Assembly: GCF_963675165.1 (NCBI RefSeq)
Contig: NC_087385.1
Span: forward strand, 3,472,501-3,536,500
DNA from: Halichondria panicea
Lineage: Eukaryota > Porifera > Demospongiae > Suberitida > Halichondriidae
Length of the DNA: 64,000 bases
Reading direction: 5' to 3'
In this document: one piece after another, positions 53,037 through 64,000 of the stretch
Layout: each line of letters begins with the position of its first letter
Numbering within the stretch: the stretch's first letter is position 1
Position numbers and translations under genes: made by a program
Notes under the pieces: model-generated
The model's input: only the letters and a program-made list of their open reading frames with translations
What the model was told of the DNA's origin: nothing
Database searches by the model: none

Positions 53037-56000
53037 ATGGCTTCATCTGCCTCTTCAAAGGACGATCGTATATTGAATGTAATATTTAATCCAGATGAAC
53101 CAATTCTAGGACTGGAGGTAAGTCTTGTATAAAAAAGAAGACCCAGAAAATTATTTGGTTGGTCTAGTTGACACTGTCGTACTCACTCTACTCTCGAACT
53201 CAAACTCACTCACATGTAGACGCCTGATTAGGTACCATATACATATACGTATTGAGAGTCTACAGTTTTATTAAAATTTTATGCCACAGTATCATCCCTT
53301 GATATATATAAACCCTTGGTATCATTTAATACTTAATTTGGATACGCATTTTTTTCACAGCTAGAAAGTGATGCTGGTGTTGGTGATTGTGTGTGTACGG
53401 GTGGGTTGAGCAGTGAGGAGGTGAAGCATGCCCAACTCCTAGAGCTGCAGGCAGTGAAGGTGGCAGAGGGTGGCAATCTAGTTAATGCACTTGAACTACT
53501 CAACAACGCTGTCACAGAGGTGCCTGGCTATGCCTCCGTCTACAACAACAGGGCTCAGGTATACAAGTGGTCTGGTACATCTTCGTGCGTATTATAAAGG
53601 TTCGAGTAGAATTTAGTTGCGAACAACTTTACCACGCCTAGCGCCTTCAATCTTTGCACATTATTAATTTTTGCATTTTCTAATTAAAGAACAAAATGTT
53701 CATGGAATAGTTTTCATGTAGAATTGCTAACCCACGTAAACAGTGAACATTAAGCCCCTCAAAAATTGTGCGCTATATTTGCTCGTGGTCTTGACTTGAA
53801 AGGACCCCGAGACTTAAATCCTTGTCCAGCATTTCATACTCCCTCTTCATGTCCTCAGACCTGTTTGAACTGCTTACTACTGAGCACTGTACTGAGCACT
53901 GTACTGTATACGTATAGCAGAAAATTTTCGTGAGGTGCAAAATTTCGCGTTCGAGGGAAACAGAAAATGCAAAAATTAAAAATGGGATAAACTCCCACGC
54001 ACCGATATTTCACATGCAAAGCTATTAGTGGGTGTGGTTTCCTTGCATTGAACCGCGACTATTAGAACCCACAGAAATTTCTGCTAAGGGCTCTGGAGCC
54101 AAATAGCGAAAATTTGCACCTGCAAAAATTCCCACTATACGGTAACTAATCTGAAGTACAGGGTATAACATAAATGCCACAATTGTATACAAATGTACTA
54201 TTGAACCTTTATAAAGATATCTAAATACCATTCTACTGTTAATAACGCATGCTGCTGTAAAAGTACAGTGCTATTGCTCATTGCTGGATAAAGTAAGAGG
54301 AACGGAAACATGCTATACATTCGCGTTAGATTTTGTTTGGTTTGTTACAATAATTGTGCTAATTAAAGTATCTATAGGGAAAATCTACAAAATCTATACA
54401 CCAATGACCATAGGCTTTCTCCTCATACTAAATATAACAATCAGTGTGATGATATAGGAACAAAACTCTGTTTTCAGAACTCAAAGAGAAAACTCCTTGT
54501 TAGTAGCTAGAAGTCTGTAGGTAGTCTGCGATGGTTCAGCATAGTGTTAATTTACTAAGCTCAACTAGCCTCTAAAATCATGATATGACGCTACACGTAC
54601 AATTGATATAGCATCACGTGGTGCATTTCCAATCTCTTTCTTTCTTCTATCTATGGTTCTATCTATGGTGTGTACATAATTACGATAAATTTACATTCAG
54701 GTATATCGTCTGCTGAACCAGGTGGACCTAGCTCTGACAGACTTAGATGAGGCCATTCGTCTCTCCAATGGTCAAGGGAAGGTAGCAGAGCAAGCATTCA
54801 CCCAGAGAGGCCTCATTAGGAGATTGAGGGGGGAAGATGAGGGGGCTTTAGCTGACTTTAAGTGTGCTGCCAATCTTGGCAGTCGATTTGCCAGGAAACA
54901 GGTAGGTCTATATAATTACCAAGCGGAAAGCGAGGCGAATAATCGTTCTACCTGATTCTGTAAATATATGTCTGTAACGGATGTGAGTTGGGCTCCCCTG
55001 TGGGAGCTTTGAGGCAATAAAGAAGCAAACGATTCACTTGCCTAGATGGGCGTGGCCATCTCGTACTGCAACTCTGCAAGCCACTGTGCAATTTTCTCTG
55101 CTCTTAGGCTTTTAACTGTCTCTAGCTCTCAGAGTAATAGTTAGGAGACAGCAAGCAGATCAGCAGAGGTCAGCTCGTATTATATTGTAGGTATCACAAT
55201 CTTATTGTAAGTAGATCTATACTGAAATAGTGTCAACTCTAGTATGTATTCCTGACACTTTAGTGTAGTTCCTACAGATGATATAAAAGAGAAAGTGATA
55301 ATTATATAAGCTCACAACAACGTTGCCAATCCCTCTCTTCAATCTATGCTAATGCTATACACACAATACGTCCAGATCCTATTAATCGGCCAGTTATTTT
55401 CTCTTCATTTTTGTACCCCTTTCATTTAGCTATTAATTATTATTTAGCAACATAAACAAATCAGAACTTCCCGCGAGGCGCCTGCGTATAATTATATACA
55501 TACATGTACATGTATAGTATCGCGAGCATAACTTTTCCGGGCCGTCTGGTCACTATTGCATGTTGGCAGTGCCAATTAGATTTGACTACGTGTTTAGTGG
55601 GCGGTAACATTCTGTAATTTTCCCAATTATAGCATGAAATGAACGTGAAACGAAGGATAATATTTAATCTACAGTGTTGCACCATATCTGGCTGCGAAGG
55701 AACTCGGTTACAAAGAGCTCAGACCCAAGCTAGCTGCAAATGAAGTTTACATGTGGCTTTAGTTAATTAACGAATATCTTGCACGTGACTACATTCCTTA
55801 GTGGCCACGGAATCATTGCAATAGTGACCAGACACCCCTCCCCCCCCCCCCCAACGTCTGCTCGCGAGACTAGATATTATATACATGTACGTGTACATTA
55901 AGAAGTTGCTGAAAACCTAACGAAGCTACTGCATGCATCAAGAGTCATTAGGAAGAGTACGTAACTCCAATTGACTGTACACAAAAAGTATTCCTCCAGA

Positions 56001-57083
56001 CCTACGTCACTGATACTAGCTGTTGTAACCGCAACTAGCAGGAAAGGCAATGAATAAAATTAGTACCGTCAGGAGCCCATAAAGAGAAGGAGCGTCGGGG
56101 ATCACATCTCGTAATTGCCGGTGAAACCGCACTTCCTTGTTTGGAAGTGACTAAGTGCTTACAAACCGCAGCCCTGCATTGCGTATAACACGTGTAGGGA
56201 TTCAACCACTTAAGTGACTCTGCATATATGGAAATGCGGTCATAACCACTTACGAGATGTGATCCCCGTAGTCAGCCGCTCCTTTTCTTTATGGGCTCCT
56301 GGTACCGTATATCTTATCGGACACTTCTAATTACCCCGGACACTCTTTTGGGAAATTTTCGTTGTTCTAAGTAATACAACGGACACTCCAGTAATTTAAT
56401 ATTACATTTGTTCTAAATATCCGGACAAAATAATACCTTGAAAAGTTGAGTTACCATTCATAGACGGCAAGTAAGACTTAGAGTGCTGCAGTTAGATAGC
56501 TGCAGTTAGATAGCTTTGAGTAGCAAGTTTTAGATAGCTAGTGCAACTATTCAGTCGTACCCTGTTCTATTAAACTTAGCTAGCTCGCATGCAGCTGCTT
56601 GCTTGTTCTAATTATTCCGGACACTTCGCTTGCTCTATTCCAATTATACCCAGACAATTTCCAAAATAATTATTTTTTGCTGTCCGATAAATTAGAAGAT
56701 ATACGGTAACAGACGGTAACTCATTGCCTTTCCTACTGGCAGTTGTAAATCAGTGATAATTATCACTATGTTATTCATTGCAAATTCAGTTTATACAACA
56801 GCATGTGGTTGTGACGTAGGTTGGAAGAAACGCCCACTACGGTTTTAAGTGGAGTTGCGTACTCTTCCTAATGAACTCTTGTATGCATGCATGTATATCA
56901 TTTTTATCCCATGTCAATAAAATATGAATTTGTGTGGTCAGTGCCATAATTGAAAATTTATATGTTTCGATATTAATCACTGTCATTATGCTTGTGCAGG
57001 TTGTGACGATGAATCCGTATGCTGCACTCTGCTCGAAAATGCTCTCACAAGCTATAAATAAACTGAAAACTGGTGATAATTAA
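53037..57083 (+). CDS. TTC36: Tetratricopeptide repeat protein 36
   Basis: Exons 53037-53117, 53361-53558, 54701-54901 and 57000-57083, all phase 0, encode 187 residues; human TTC36 has 189. Signature stretches: LNVIFNPDEPILGLE, AQLLELQAVKVAEGGNLVNA, YASVYNNRAQ, ALTDLDEAIRLS, FTQRGLIRRLRGEDEGAL, LGSRFARKQ and NPYAALCSKML. Three TPR motifs cover about residues 50-160. The vertebrate protein (HBP21) is reported to bind Hsp70 and to affect tyrosine catabolism. Intron 3 (54902-56999) is long because of nested transposons. Confidence 0.95.
53902..54144. repeat. MITE family A variant
   Basis: Right end CCCACTATACGGTA, left end TACTGTATACGTATAGCAG; related to the copy at 24574. A worn family A piece also lies at 53600-53780. 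The rest of 54145-54700 shows nothing else. Confidence 0.65.
55514..55877. repeat. Inverted-repeat element
   Basis: Complementary pairs: GTATCGCGAGCA with TGCTCGCGAGAC, and GTCTGGTCACTATTGCA with TGCAATAGTGACCAGAC. A C homopolymer (about 13) lies near the right end. Confidence 0.65.
55931..56890. mobile_element. Composite element containing two MITEs
   Basis: Outer arms: GCATGCATCAAGAGTCATTA.. at 55931 and the complement ending at 56890. Inside are a 230-bp MITE (56071-56300, ends AGGAGCCCATAAAGAGAAGG and complement) and an intact family D MITE (56303-56708). TACCGT occurs on both sides of the 230-bp MITE (56064-56069 and 56303-56308), as a target duplication would. Confidence 0.75.
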
Positions 57084-57114: not shown

Positions 57115-57690
57115 GAAATTGATCAAGCAGAAGAAATGCTGATTCAGCACAGTAATGGTCTCGGGCCACGCCCTCCGCAACAATTAGCTAAGACTAGATT
57201 CCAGCCCTATCCGGTCCTAGATCCTAGATCCTCTACTGTACCCAAGGCCCAGAGCAAAAAACCTGTTGACCAGGCCGGAGACAGATAATCTGCTGGACCA
57301 CTTCACCATGTACCAGGAGCCAATCGTACATGCACTGGACAGTGCTAGCACTAGCCAAGGCGCTCTTACGCCACCCACTGCCAGTGGCACTGGTCCTGGT
57401 CCTAAGCATCTTCTGTGTTCTCCCGATGCTCTAGTAAGTACTAGACTAGTACATACCGTAGTTGATGTAATTACAGCGCCAGCAAAAGATAATTATTTTT
57501 GCGAGACTATACATGAATTTATATGGATATGGTGGTATATGACCAACAATTTCGAATTTCGTTTAATTAGACTGGCGCTTGTAATTAATCGGACAGCAAA
57601 AATAATTATTTTGGAAATTGTCCGGGTACAGATTTTTATAGAGCACGAAGTGTCCGGAATAATTAGAACAAGCAAGCAGCTGCCGAGCTA
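57115..57690 (+). other. Open stretches after TTC36, uncertain
   Basis: Downstream of the TTC36 stop, a TGTCAG acceptor-like site (57111-57114) is followed by 57 open codons (EIDQAEEMLIQHSNGLGPRP..) to a stop at 57286-57288. An overlapping frame reads NLLDHFTMYQEPIVHALDSA then a P/T/G-rich run. They could be an alternative 3' exon or a lost gene; I do not recognise either. The tail beyond 57460 is transposon sequence. Confidence 0.25.
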
Positions 57691-57942
57691 GCTAAGTTTA
57701 ATAGAACAGGGTACGACTGAATAGTTGCACTAGCTATCTAAAACTAGCTACTCAAAGCTATCTAACTGCAGCACTCTAAGTCTAAGTTACTTGTCGTCTA
57801 TGAATGGTAACTCAACTTTTCAAGGTATTTAGAACAAAATTAATGTAGTACTGGAGTGTCCGTTGTATTAGAACAACGAAAATTGCCCAAAAGAGTGTCT
57901 GGGGTGATTAGAAGTGTCCGATAAATTAGAAGATATACGGTA
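57588..57942. repeat. MITE family D, truncated copy
   Basis: Right end AATTAGAAGATATACGGTA intact; left end merges into the GGCGCT-type element (57465-57590). Confidence 0.65.
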
Positions 57943-57950
57943 CTAGACTA

Positions 57951-58590: not shown

Positions 58591-61500
58591 ATGCTCCATT
58601 TCCTCATGCATGTGCTCCTGATATTATCTAGCAATGCATTGCAAGTAGATGTCAGGTAGGCACTTTGAATCTCTGCATACATTCAATTTCTTCATACAGG
58701 GGTGTGCTGGTGCAGAAGACTACCTATCTGATGACGAGGATAGCAACGACCATCCCAATAATACTGCAGCTGCCTATGTCACTACTACCAAGATGTGGCG
58801 TCGTAAAACTGCCCTGAGGGTGTACTTCATGGACGAGCAGATCCTCAATAGTTGGAGTGTAGATCGGGCAACAATGAATGTTGACAACATCCTTGGCTGG
58901 GCAGCGGAGTGGAATACACAGCTTGCGCCTAACATACCAAAGTTCATCAAGGAAGATGTGATCGAGATGTCTGACATCAGGGTCTCTTTTGGAAGTAAGC
59001 ACACTACCATCATGCAGGGACTCAATTAGAGTTCATGGAACCTGCCTAGATTCCTTTTTTGTGTACCTAGCCTTGACCCCCCTTCTGCCTAAGCAATGCT
59101 CTAATTGTATATCTTCGCCTCATTCAAGGTGTCACCTGACTACATCTATAATTATGTCAAGAAGAGTTGTACTGCCTTTTTGTCTTAATGTCTTAATTGT
59201 CTTACTCAGGAGGTGCAGGTTGCTGGTCGAAGGTGGGGACTGATGCCAAGAATGTGCCTGGAACAGCTCCTACAATGAACCTCACTCTGAAGAACTTCCC
59301 ACCCGATTTTCAACGCTACCTAGTCATCCATGAGTTTGGGCATGTTCTTGGCTTGCAGCACGAGCATCAACGCTCAGACTTCTGGATAGCAGGCTCTAAG
59401 TATCTTGATGTCAAGAAAATGGAGAGAGACCATCGAATGAAGTTTACTGATTTTGTGGTTGATATCTTACAGCTTTCGTACAAAGGTGACATGTCCACAT
59501 ATGATCCTGACAGCATCATGCATTACTGGTAGGTTTTACCTTGGTGTTACTAAGGTACATACATCATACCCATGTACTGCATCATCTAGTTTTATGAACA
59601 TAATGGTATATACACTGTACTTAATGTGTACCTAGGTTTGATGTACGTTGGCTCAAGGACAAGTATGAAAAGTATCAGAATCGATCTCATGTTCAGCAGT
59701 GCAAAAAGTTGACTGAAAAGCAACGGAAATTCCTTCTAGGGATTCACAGTAATAATGGCTCCAGCTTTTCCCAGCGTCCTTCCCAGACTGATCTCTTATT
59801 TTTGCAGAAGTGCTACAGTGAGTCAAGTGCTAACTGCAGCTTCTAATAATCATTATAGAACCGCGTACTGCATGGTGATTGAATGTACTAATTAAAGCAC
59901 ATGCTCCTATGTAGGTAGCCGGGACTTTCCAGATAATGACTCAGGTTCATTTCGGCCATCTTTGCAGGGGCCTACCAGTTCTCAAACACCGAAAGGTTAG
60001 TTGTAAATTCTCGTAGCAACGTACTTCAAATAGTCAGAGGTCAAGTGATATGTGTGCGGGCAGAGGAGGTAGGACACGCCACACGTCATTAGTTATCGTA
60101 TAGAATGCAATTAAATTATGACCTTTAACCTTTATTGGGGGCGTAGACGCGTGGCACTCATGCACTGTCAAGTTGCTTCAAATAATTATTGTGGCAGACT
60201 GCAATTGTTCTGAGTCAAGCTCTATATACAGTAGACTCTCACTAATCTAGCTGGCTCTCTGTAGTCAGTCGTTTCGTTTGGCATAAATCGCTATCTTTAG
60301 CTTGATCAGTACGTACTGCACAAAACTCGCCTTGAAATGTAGCCAACTCGCTATTATTTCTGGCTGTCCCAAAAACTATGTTTTTAATGTACTTTATTAC
60401 GGCTAGATATGACATTTTGGGTGTGGTTTGGCAGATAAAATTGGGTTACACTTAAATAGAGAGTAAAATTTCATTATCCTCGAGACAAAACTGCAAAATT
60501 AGTCATTAGATTCGAGGTAGGATCGCTTTTTAGCCGCGCCAATTTTCTGAAATGCAGCTACCTTGCTACGGCCAAGCTGCACTGTCTCAAGGGTGACCGG
60601 ATTAACGAGAGCCTACTGTAATTGGCAATCAATTACATAACACTTGCATGCTGTGATTATGAGTCAGCAATTTTCAATATGATAAGGTCAAAGTTGAACT
60701 AATAATCAGAAAATGGGCGTGTCTCTTGTGTGCGCGTGCGCATTACAGTTGTTACCATATAGAGAAGGGTATTCTTATCTTATGCATATATATGTGTAGA
60801 CGTCCACGTAGTTTATCCATGGCATACCATATAGCGTGTATATTTCGAGGGTATAACATTTTCACGGTTTTCGCTGATTAAGCATTGTATCGCGAATATT
60901 TATACACACGAATTTAATATCGCATGCATGCATGCTGTAGAAAGGCTGCTATTCTGCGAAAACCTTTAGTCCTTCCACGAAAGTTTATACCCTCAAAATA
61001 TACCCCGCTATACAGTATTCAGTTTTCTGGCCTGCCTTTGGGACCAAGGTGTGTGGATAGTTAGTGATCTTGCAATTGCTTCCTAGCTTTTTTATGCCGA
61101 GTTCTCTGTAACTGTACTTATTCACTTGCTCAGCAATAATCACAGTACCCAAGTGTTATAGTAACCAATTAAGTGCAATTGCTCCAAAGCTGCTCCGCGC
61201 CTGTTGTACCTCCCCTAGGGATTTTTTTTTTCTTGTACACGCATGCCCTTTTGGGATTTAGCCAATCTGTAACACTGATCATCTTTTCCTACAGATTGCA
61301 CTGAATGCTCTCCCGATCAGATTCAGCATATCCAGCTGGTGAGGAAGCAGCTGAAGTACGTACATAAGATTCGAAACATTGACAAGGACTCTGTTAATAC
61401 AGTCTCACAAGGAGCCCTCTTAGACTACATCGAAAATTACACCAAAGGTTGTAGCCCAGACTTCAATCACTTGAAATCACACCTTGAGAGCCTTCAGCTA

Positions 61501-63903
61501 CACGAAGGTCTTGTCTCTGATTCCTGTGTACTGGAGTTGGCATTGAAGCACGTAGATGACAAAAAAGACGAAAAAAATGGCAAAGAACCCCTGTTTTGCA
61601 AAGACGTGGTATATCATGCCAGTCTTTGTTGTTTGGCTGTCAACACCTGTGACAGTATGTCTTCTCTTCAGATGTTTTTGAGTGACAAAAAACGTATAAG
61701 TGGCCACTGCTTTCAGGAGGTTTCCCTATCTTACAGCGAACAAGAGCGTTACCTTATAGCACGGCAAGGAGAGTCAACTTACTATGTTGCACTTCAGGGC
61801 GTCTCGGACGTTCGAGAATGGTTGATATATCGTTCTTTCAAAGAAGGTACTTGTTTTGTATACCTCGTGTATGTTGAGTATATAATTACACTTACGACTG
61901 TGCTTTGAATAGGAATTGCCGCTCAAATCAACAGCTTTCCTGTCCAATTCATTGTGGATCTGCTTGCTGGCAAAATGAACCGAGTCGTTTTGACTGGTAA
62001 TACTATGTCACTATGCCTGATACAGTCTGTAGTTTAGTCATGCTTTAGCATGCCGACTTTACAACAGAGCTTCACATTTTTAACATGTAGCAATTAACAT
62101 GCTTCTTATGAATACCGATAACACTTAGGACTAATAATTAGCTCAGTCAAATTAGCTCAGTCATGGTGATCACTGATTTCTTATTTCCACAGTATGTACT
62201 AGGAGATGAATTTCGATTAATCTTTGCAGGGTTCTCTTTTGGTGGTCTGTTGGCTTCGTCCATCACAGCAAAAGTGTGGCAGTCTCCCTCTTTAGGATGG
62301 AAGCACATGCAGGAGTCTCTAGTTTGTATTTCATTTGCTCAACCTCACCTACCTGTTCCTGAGTTAGACATCATTGCACAGGAATCCCCATTGATAGCAC
62401 GTTCCATGCATCTGATATACTACGAGCAGGACAAGATTCCTCTTGTCATCTCATTGTTTGATCAAAAATGCAGTGCTTTCCTGGTGGAAACACGCACAAG
62501 TGAGCCAGGCCTTAAGTTGTTACTGCACAAAGAGCCAGGCACAGTGAGTTGTAAAAGTACACCACATGATTTAAAGATGTCAATGTTATTTACTAAGGCT
62601 TTTGAAGACCCACTGACCCAGAAGCTTATAAGGCAGCTTGGAACTCTAATGAACACTGTGAGTTTAATATTATCGCTTACATGCATGTAAATTGTACGGA
62701 GTGAAGTCCTGTTTATGTTATTGATTAATTTACATTGGTGCATGCTACCAGTTTTAATGATAGTGCAACATTCTTTTCATTTCTTCTTTACAATGTGTGA
62801 AGCGCCAGGAAATCAAGAGATCGCTATCTGAAGAACTGGAGAAGTCTCTGACTGTAATCTCTCCCATGGCTACTCAGATGCGTAATGCCGATTCAAACCA
62901 CTTCACCCACTACTCATTGTGCACGGATCGCACCGAGAGGGGTCTTACTTTTAATAAGATTTCTAAGCAGGAGGTTCGCACTTGTTTCACTGTCGAAGAT
63001 GTTGATGCCCTCCTCCGTAATCATAGCAAGGTACAAGTACGGTATATGTATTAAACTTGCCAACTGAACGTATCTTAAGTGACAAACAGTTACATTTACT
63101 GGTCAAGTAAAGCAATGTTATTGTACAAGTGCATGGTTGACTCAAAAATATTCCACGTGCACAGCACTCCATGATGGTGTACGCTGACAAGCTGGCCAGA
63201 GGTTATTTGAACAAGTCATCTGATTACACTATTCCAGACAACCATATCATACCCAAGTCTGTCCGTAAACTGCAGCCTGTTCTCACTGAAGTGCAAGTAG
63301 CCGAGTGCTCTTCAAATTTGTGTCTCACCTTATTTGGAGACAACCTCTGGTTCTGCAAAATGTTTGAGATTGAGGGAATTGAGTTCCCAGTTTTAGTGTC
63401 TGCTAACTCTCAATCTAGCATTCAATCCAGTCTCTCCGATATGGACAGTAGTGTGTTGGGTGATATCTCTAATGGAGATCCTTTAAGCGTCACTCTCCAT
63501 TCTCATTTTGGGGAGCCTCTGGTTGTTCAATCAATTCTACACAAAAAGGTGCTTTAAAATTGTCAACAGAGCGTTTGCGTCGTGTTTAAGCATAATTGTT
63601 TATTAGAAAGTACAGTATCCACAAGCTTTCTCAGAAGGCTTTCTAAAACAGAACATTTAGTGGTCATAATAATTATTATGTCAATCCAGTTCCATTCATT
63701 TAATTTGCAGGAATATGCTAAAACAGCCAGACAGCGTCATGTTGAAGCACTCAAGCCATCAGAGCTAATTGAGTTGACATATCTCAGTGCGTTACTAGAA
63801 CGGCAACCACACGGACATTTTGCTGATACAACTTCTTTTAAGGCCACGACTATTCGGAAATTTATTGACAATGCACAAAAGTCTGTCCCTTTAGAGAGCA
63901 TAG
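58591..63903 (+). CDS. Astacin-type metallopeptidase fused to class-3 lipase-like domain (partial)
   Basis: Eleven exons: 58591-58650, 58700-58994, 59210-59528, 59636-59817, 59915-59995, 61295-61846, 61913-61996, 62230-62657, 62803-63030, 63165-63548 and 63711-63903; the gene runs off the window after at least 935 residues. Exon 1 supplies a hydrophobic signal-like MLHFLMHVLLILSS. It needs a weak donor (GTCAGG), because the better site one codon later breaks frame; a start at 58649 is the alternative. Zinc-site HEFGHVLGLQHEHQR lies at about 159-173 and met-turn DSIMHYW near 220. A Cys-containing linker leads to YYVALQGVSDVREW and the nucleophile elbow TGFSFGGLLAS (Ser about 527), then FAQPHLP, YYEQDKIP (candidate Asp about 592) and HFTHYSL (candidate His about 703). 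All linking junctions are in phase. Substrates unknown; secretion is inferred. Confidence 0.82.
60227..60620. repeat. MITE family B copy
   Basis: Ends TACAGTAGACTCTCACTAAT and ATTAACGAGAGCCTACTGTA, inside the 1.3 kb intron 59996-61294 that separates the protease exons from the lipase exons. Confidence 0.75.
60825..61017. repeat. MITE family A copy
   Basis: Ends TACCATATAGCGTGTATATT and TATACCCCGCTATACAGTA; same intron as the preceding element. Confidence 0.75.
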
Positions 63904-64000
63904 GTATGTGTTGTACATCCGAAAACAATGTGGTATCTGAAACATGTGCTAAAGTAATTTTAACGCACGCTGACAACCTACCATTCTCGTTGCCTCTCTG

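Follow-up and report, generated by a model that had tools for sequence, protein, structure and literature searches.

Gene structure and domain architecture

We analyzed a 64,000-nucleotide stretch of the genome of the sponge Halichondria panicea (contig NC_087385.1; C9:3472501-3536500 in our contig labels), hereafter the window. Near its end, at 58591-63903, an earlier note made from the sequence alone had placed one spliced gene for a two-domain, probably secreted enzyme, an astacin-type zinc metallopeptidase followed by a class-3-lipase-type hydrolase. The genome searched comprises 131 Mb in 39 contigs, and the loci fetched from it are designated L001 to L012, L001 being the window locus continued past the window end. 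On the forward strand of this locus, a model of 14 exons with GT-AG junctions, extending from approximately 57.3 kb to 66978 and encoding 1447 amino acids, has no internal stop codon whether exon 5 is included or skipped (Table 1). The order of the encoded modules is an astacin-type zinc protease, a helical region, a class-3-lipase-type alpha/beta hydrolase, another helical region and a GTPase; the reading as a whole, with a single gene and a cytosolic product, is one that we moderately favor. Junctions were listed by whether they kept the frame, and the picks among them were guided by matches to relatives; several of the picked junctions score below the top option, and the acceptor of exon 9 was set by hand.

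The claim that the reading frame is unbroken across each junction holds from exon 2 through exon 11, all joined at GT-AG boundaries, but fails for the proposed exon 1 at 58591, which ends in phase 2 where exon 2 demands phase 0 and which scores -0.15 bits per codon. On this coding scale, 26-codon exons have a median of 0.13, whereas the background has a median of -0.13 and a 95% point of 0.06. A Pro/Ser-rich open stretch further upstream is the better, if unproven, first exon (Table 1). At the other extremity, the former gene end at 63903 is probably wrong: a fair donor is present there, but the open frame extends to 64778, as it does in the L002 relative, where the region matching exon 11 lies in a single frame of 499 codons, both ends of the match included. 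The added 3' part, which continues to 66978, contains a GTPase that matches the Pfam model MMR_HSR1 at 36.7 bits (cut-off 21.9) and leaves the NACHT and NB-ARC models unmatched, so that the description as a two-domain enzyme has to be abandoned.

The protease half (58700-59817) was correctly recognized. It matches Pfam Astacin (PF01400) at 38.3 bits, above the cut-off of 22.5; its best match among solved structures is myroilysin (E = 3e-10); and both the zinc site, HEFGHVLGLQH, conforming to HExxHxxGxxH, and the Met-turn, SIMHY, conforming to SxMHY, are intact. Among the nine copies found by pattern (the window and seven loci), the zinc-site glutamate is present as HE in eight and the site reads HQ in L007, which may therefore be an inactive copy.

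The lipase-type domain spans 61295-63548 and contains the motif GFSFGG, then an aspartate and then a histidine. The class-3 lipase layout proposed earlier is upheld by these three elements and by the profile matches of relatives, but not by the window copy itself, which scores 17.7 bits against Pfam Lipase_3 (PF01764), below the cut-off of 22. All four aligned members match Lipase_3 at E values up to 1 (best 9.6e-9), and it is through these relatives that the window hydrolase is called lipase-type. Residues S215, D280 and H432, which follow the lipase order, are invariant in the four-row alignment and, judging from the lipase layout, are the likely catalytic residues. GFSFGG is found in the window and in all three aligned relatives. 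A fifth copy, C8 (L004 with L005), reads GFTFGG, with threonine replacing serine, and is possibly inactive. When a profile of the four members was compared with solved structures at E values up to 10, only the plant proteins PAD4 (E = 0.0062) and EDS1 (E = 0.073 and 0.18) were retrieved, and the single lipase sequence had no match in the PDB. A search for bacterial relatives of the lipase half gave 87 pattern matches, none of which was confirmed.

Table 1. Features of the window locus and of its continuation in L001 (window coordinates unless L001 is given)
Feature	Position	Strand	Remarks
Upstream gene	53037-57083	+	exons with MASSASSKDDRILNVIFNPDEP... to ...VVTMNPYAALCSKMLSQAINKLKTGDN, then stop
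Candidate first coding exon, 42 aa, Pro/Ser-rich	57308-57433	+	GTAAGT donor, phase 0, fits exon 2; weakly coding (0.09 bits per codon); uncertain
Exon 1 of the earlier note, signal-peptide-like	58591-58655	+	rejected
Exon 2, N-terminal half of astacin-type metallopeptidase	58700-58994	+	
Exon 3, zinc site HEFGHVLGLQHEHQR and Met-turn SIMHY	59210-59528	+	
Exon 4, end of metallopeptidase module	59636-59817	+	phase-1 donor; phase-1 donor candidates in L007-L010 too
Exon 5, 27-aa linker	59915-59995	+	phase 1-1, skippable in frame; TAG read just past donor
Intron separating protease and lipase halves	59996-61294	+	two repeat insertions
Exon 6, helical region and start of lipase-type domain	61295-61846	+	phase-1 acceptor, as in five relatives
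Exon 7, lipase-type domain	61913-61996	+	
Exon 8, nucleophile motif GFSFGG and candidate catalytic Asp (YYEQDKIP)	62230-62657	+	
Exon 9	62803-63030	+	acceptor 62803 or 62809; donor 63030 or 63036
Exon 10, candidate catalytic His (HSMMVY), then conserved region	63165-63548	+	
Exon 11	63711-64000	+	truncated by window end; runs to 64778 in L001, with GTPase P-loop GLINSGKTK there
Last three exons (L001, past window end)	64844-65028, 66344-66515, 66739-66978	+	stop at 66978
TPR exons	L001 3700-5700	+	seen in open frames; flank the locus past the GTPase
AAA ATPase exons	L001 6900-9830	-	seen in open frames; flank the locus

The lipase-GTPase family and its upstream helical exons

The lipase half is present at 12 loci of the genome, the window included, and in all 12 a GTPase match follows 2.4-10.0 kb downstream. 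In 10 of the 11 lipase loci outside the window, a death-fold-like helical exon precedes the lipase match by 207-446 bp; the eleventh has a weak death-fold-like match alone, 6.1 kb off. These distances were taken to eight places that we label CARD-like and four that we label Death-like. The former label is not a Pfam assignment: the upstream helical domain on C15 has no Pfam match above the cut-off, and among the matches listed in a Pfam CARD search of the genome none is near the lipase loci. The Death-like domain upstream on C4 and C8 reaches 16.5 bits against Pfam Death, where the cut-off is 22.6. Searching the fetched loci showed a resemblance between the C15 helical domain and the domain upstream of the L010 protease (31% identity, E = 1e-5).

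The acceptor of exon 6 is in phase 1 in the window and, by eye, in all five relatives read. At the window locus itself no death-fold-like exon was found in searches with the domains of six relatives and in further searches, and the window is not listed in a genome-wide Pfam Death search in which 150 of 503 candidates were scored. The best local death-fold match (E = 0.12, at approximately 55.45 kb), which falls within an intron of the presumed TTC36 gene, was taken as chance. The lipase-GTPase family thus has at least 12 loci in this genome, most of the others with a death-fold-like exon in front. The succession of death-fold-like exon, lipase and GTPase at 10 further loci, drawn from gene models alone, stands independently of whether the window protease is fused to the lipase. 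No lipase match accompanies the GTPase match at C15:4363356.

Relatives of the protease half

The protease family is linked to death-domain proteins. In L009 two domains precede the protease, one helical and unmatched in Pfam, the other a weak match to Death (17.7 bits); both recur in L010 (60% and 64% identity). In L008 the protease is followed by a Death domain above the cut-off (25.6 bits) with a phase-1 entry, to which a domain in L011 is related (62% identity). In L012 the last protease exon and a Death domain (40 bits, also above the cut-off) share one 222-codon open frame, and we take the two to be too close to belong to separate genes. This shared frame and the phase-1 Death exon of L008 therefore make a downstream partner normal for a protease of the window type.

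Two further observations concern these loci. A dynamin-type GTPase frame (PF00350, 54.6 bits) is found at 3591-4805 of L009, approximately 1.1 kb after the protease, and is maybe another protease-GTPase pairing. Upstream of the protease in L008, L011 and L012 there is a small N-terminal domain, similar in appearance among the three and beta-grasp-like by eye; the L008 copy, the one tested, is unmatched in Pfam.

One gene or two

A single spliced gene, running from the protease to the GTPase and encoding a cytosolic protein, is the reading toward which we lean. The join is made by in-frame GT-AG junctions, and the donor of exon 4 is in phase 1 in five of the six protease copies given to the pattern, the sixth (L011) having been missed by it. 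The claim of one spliced gene accordingly survives as the better-supported model, but it is unproven, and the two halves occur together at just one locus of the genome.

Several observations weigh against the fusion. Both domains belong to conserved families, but the join of the two halves rests on phase and context as read from genomic DNA; agreement in phase would by itself arise by chance one time in three; the phase-1 donors of L007 and L008 are weak GTGTG sites; and the coding score separates exons poorly from background. Among the 48 zinc-exon matches, only that of the window has a lipase match within 30 kb; for the next one the distance is 33.5 kb. (In this genome-wide comparison of distances, 48 of 77 protease matches, those taken as the zinc-site exon, were used together with 12 of 44 lipase, 13 of 57 GTPase and 18 of 148 Death rows, so that the Death distances in it are incomplete.) Exon 5 is weakly coding (0.07 bits per codon), is unrelated to anything in the list of genome relatives, and runs into a TAG that could terminate a protease-only gene. 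In L010 nothing coding was recognized by eye after the protease, which can thus be C-terminal, and two ATTAAA hexamers lie in the gap between the halves; the 65029-66343 intron has three.

It is quite possible, then, that two adjacent genes are present, a protease gene ending at the TAG at 59998-60000 or just past exon 4 and a lipase-GTPase gene with a short first exon somewhere in 59996-61294. This would agree with the separate loci at which relatives of the two halves are otherwise found, with the position of the stop codon and with the arrangement in L010, and the gap offers four candidates that run from an ATG to a phase-1 donor. However, the products of these would be 6-45 residues long, and most of the longest candidate falls inside a repeat; exon 6, whose phase-1 acceptor recurs in the five relatives read, offers no in-frame ATG ahead of the point where conservation of the lipase region begins; and the gap contains neither a death-fold-like match nor a coding-like segment, all 22 of its stop-free segments of at least 20 codons scoring negative. 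The gap has been lengthened by two repeat insertions (approximately 60229-60623 and 60830-61018), and these, like the uniqueness of the protease-lipase pairing in the genome, would also suit a chimeric or degenerate locus from which repeats removed the first exon of the lipase gene and where the protease is joined by occasional read-through splicing, with no stable fusion protein. Such decay is improbable, as all exons of the model are open and the zinc site, the Ser-Asp-His set and the P-loop are intact.

The product of the single gene that we favor is more likely a cytosolic, immune-type protein than a secreted one. Typical astacins are secreted, with a secretion signal and a pro-region, and an ATG followed by a hydrophobic stretch does occur at 58591, where the earlier note saw a signal peptide; the true 5' end, moreover, is unproven. 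A secreted protease-lipase acting outside the cell is nonetheless very unlikely, since the signal-like exon cannot be joined in frame to exon 2 and scores as non-coding, Death or death-fold-like domains occur in relatives of both halves, and the C-terminal part is a GTPase. The ties of the protease relatives to Death domains therefore make it likely that the window protein resides in the cytosol, and those ties, the corresponding ones of the lipase half and the GTPase end together argue for a role in immunity or cell death within the cytosol.

Comparison with known systems

With the astacins of family M12A, of the myroilysin type (5zjk), the window protein has in common HExxHxxGxxH and SxMHY; it differs from them in that no in-frame signal peptide was found, in that a pro-region was not seen (no search was aimed at it) and in its joining to intracellular-type modules. 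With class-3 lipases and the plant immune proteins PAD4 and EDS1 (8zf0, 8b28) it shares GxSxG, Asp and His in the lipase order. The similarity to PAD4 and EDS1 is weak, covering about 90-105 positions at E values from 0.0062 to 0.18, and the plant EP domain, which was unmatched in Pfam and in solved structures beyond the lipase core, is replaced by a GTPase and by helical or protease modules; we treat the likeness as a weak lead. Unlike that of NLR proteins, the P-loop domain is of the MMR_HSR1 and not of the NACHT or NB-ARC type, and, unlike proteins of death-fold networks, the window locus yielded no Death, CARD or DED domain, either with the six relatives' domains or in the further searches.

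Sponges and other marine animals have lineage-specific expansions of immune proteins with Death-like and TRADD-N domains; in Amphimedon, Death-like N-termini occur with enzymatic modules, and TRADD-N domains are fused to AIG and GBP GTPases (PMC8195603). In the main text of that study, words starting with lipase do not occur, and metallopeptidases are mentioned once, in connection with bacterial toxins. In bacterial VMAP conflict systems a caspase-type peptidase is always accompanied by a neighboring alpha/beta-hydrolase gene, and the effectors of GTPase-centered systems include an alpha/beta-hydrolase as well as peptidases (PMC7159879). These are largely separate bacterial genes, whereas the window protein is one chain in our model; none of three parts of it matched a PADLOC model. 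The domain order is not named in the titles and abstract openings listed in searches of open-licence literature, which is not proof of novelty, and no report of the death-fold-like/lipase/GTPase family was found in those titles and abstract openings or in the parts consulted of PMC8195603 and PMC7159879. The domains, the candidate catalytic residues, their splice-compatible order and the family context are observed here, and the domain set is real and unusual; the protein would be a variant among death-fold and NTPase immune-type proteins.

Proposed mechanism

A scheme can be sketched for a protein made from a single transcript, located in the cytosol, activated through its GTPase and serving in immunity, all of which we infer. 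A phase-1 module swap would have placed the protease where relatives have their death-fold-like helical exon. The GTPase may be a switch triggered by infection or damage, and assembly driven by GTP would bring the N-terminal modules together and thereby let the N-terminal module act. Recruitment of death-fold partners would be the task of the death-fold-like module in the relatives; in the window protein, the protease would instead cut proteins directly, and the hydrolase might have lipids or small esters as substrates or else function in binding. By analogy, and quite tentatively, the protein could be an animal counterpart of plant EDS1: an immune protein of the lipase type, located in the cytosol, that carries its own GTPase switch and has a metalloprotease in place of the death-fold recruiter. 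Such a protein would unite the switch and two enzymatic outputs in one chain and need no death-fold adaptor or caspase. If the fusion is real, an animal lineage has tied a GTPase switch directly to effectors of the protease and lipase types, a combination otherwise noted between genes of bacterial conflict systems and, where the lipase part is concerned, in the immunity of plants.

Neighboring genes and repeats

The upstream gene resembles what we take to be TTC36. Downstream in L001, the TPR exons, which we presume to be TTC38-like, are taken as belonging to another gene, and the exons on the opposite strand presumably encode a proteasome-type AAA ATPase. Multi-copy repeats at 60229-60623, 60830-61018 and 57578-57946 all recur within the window; the first of these is also found in L001 and L007, and the second, which by eye resembles a terminal-inverted-repeat element, in L010. 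Between the TTC36-like gene and the protease, a coding-like open stretch on the forward strand (57115-57285, EIDQAEEMLIQHSNG...), assigned to neither gene, scores 0.13 bits per codon.

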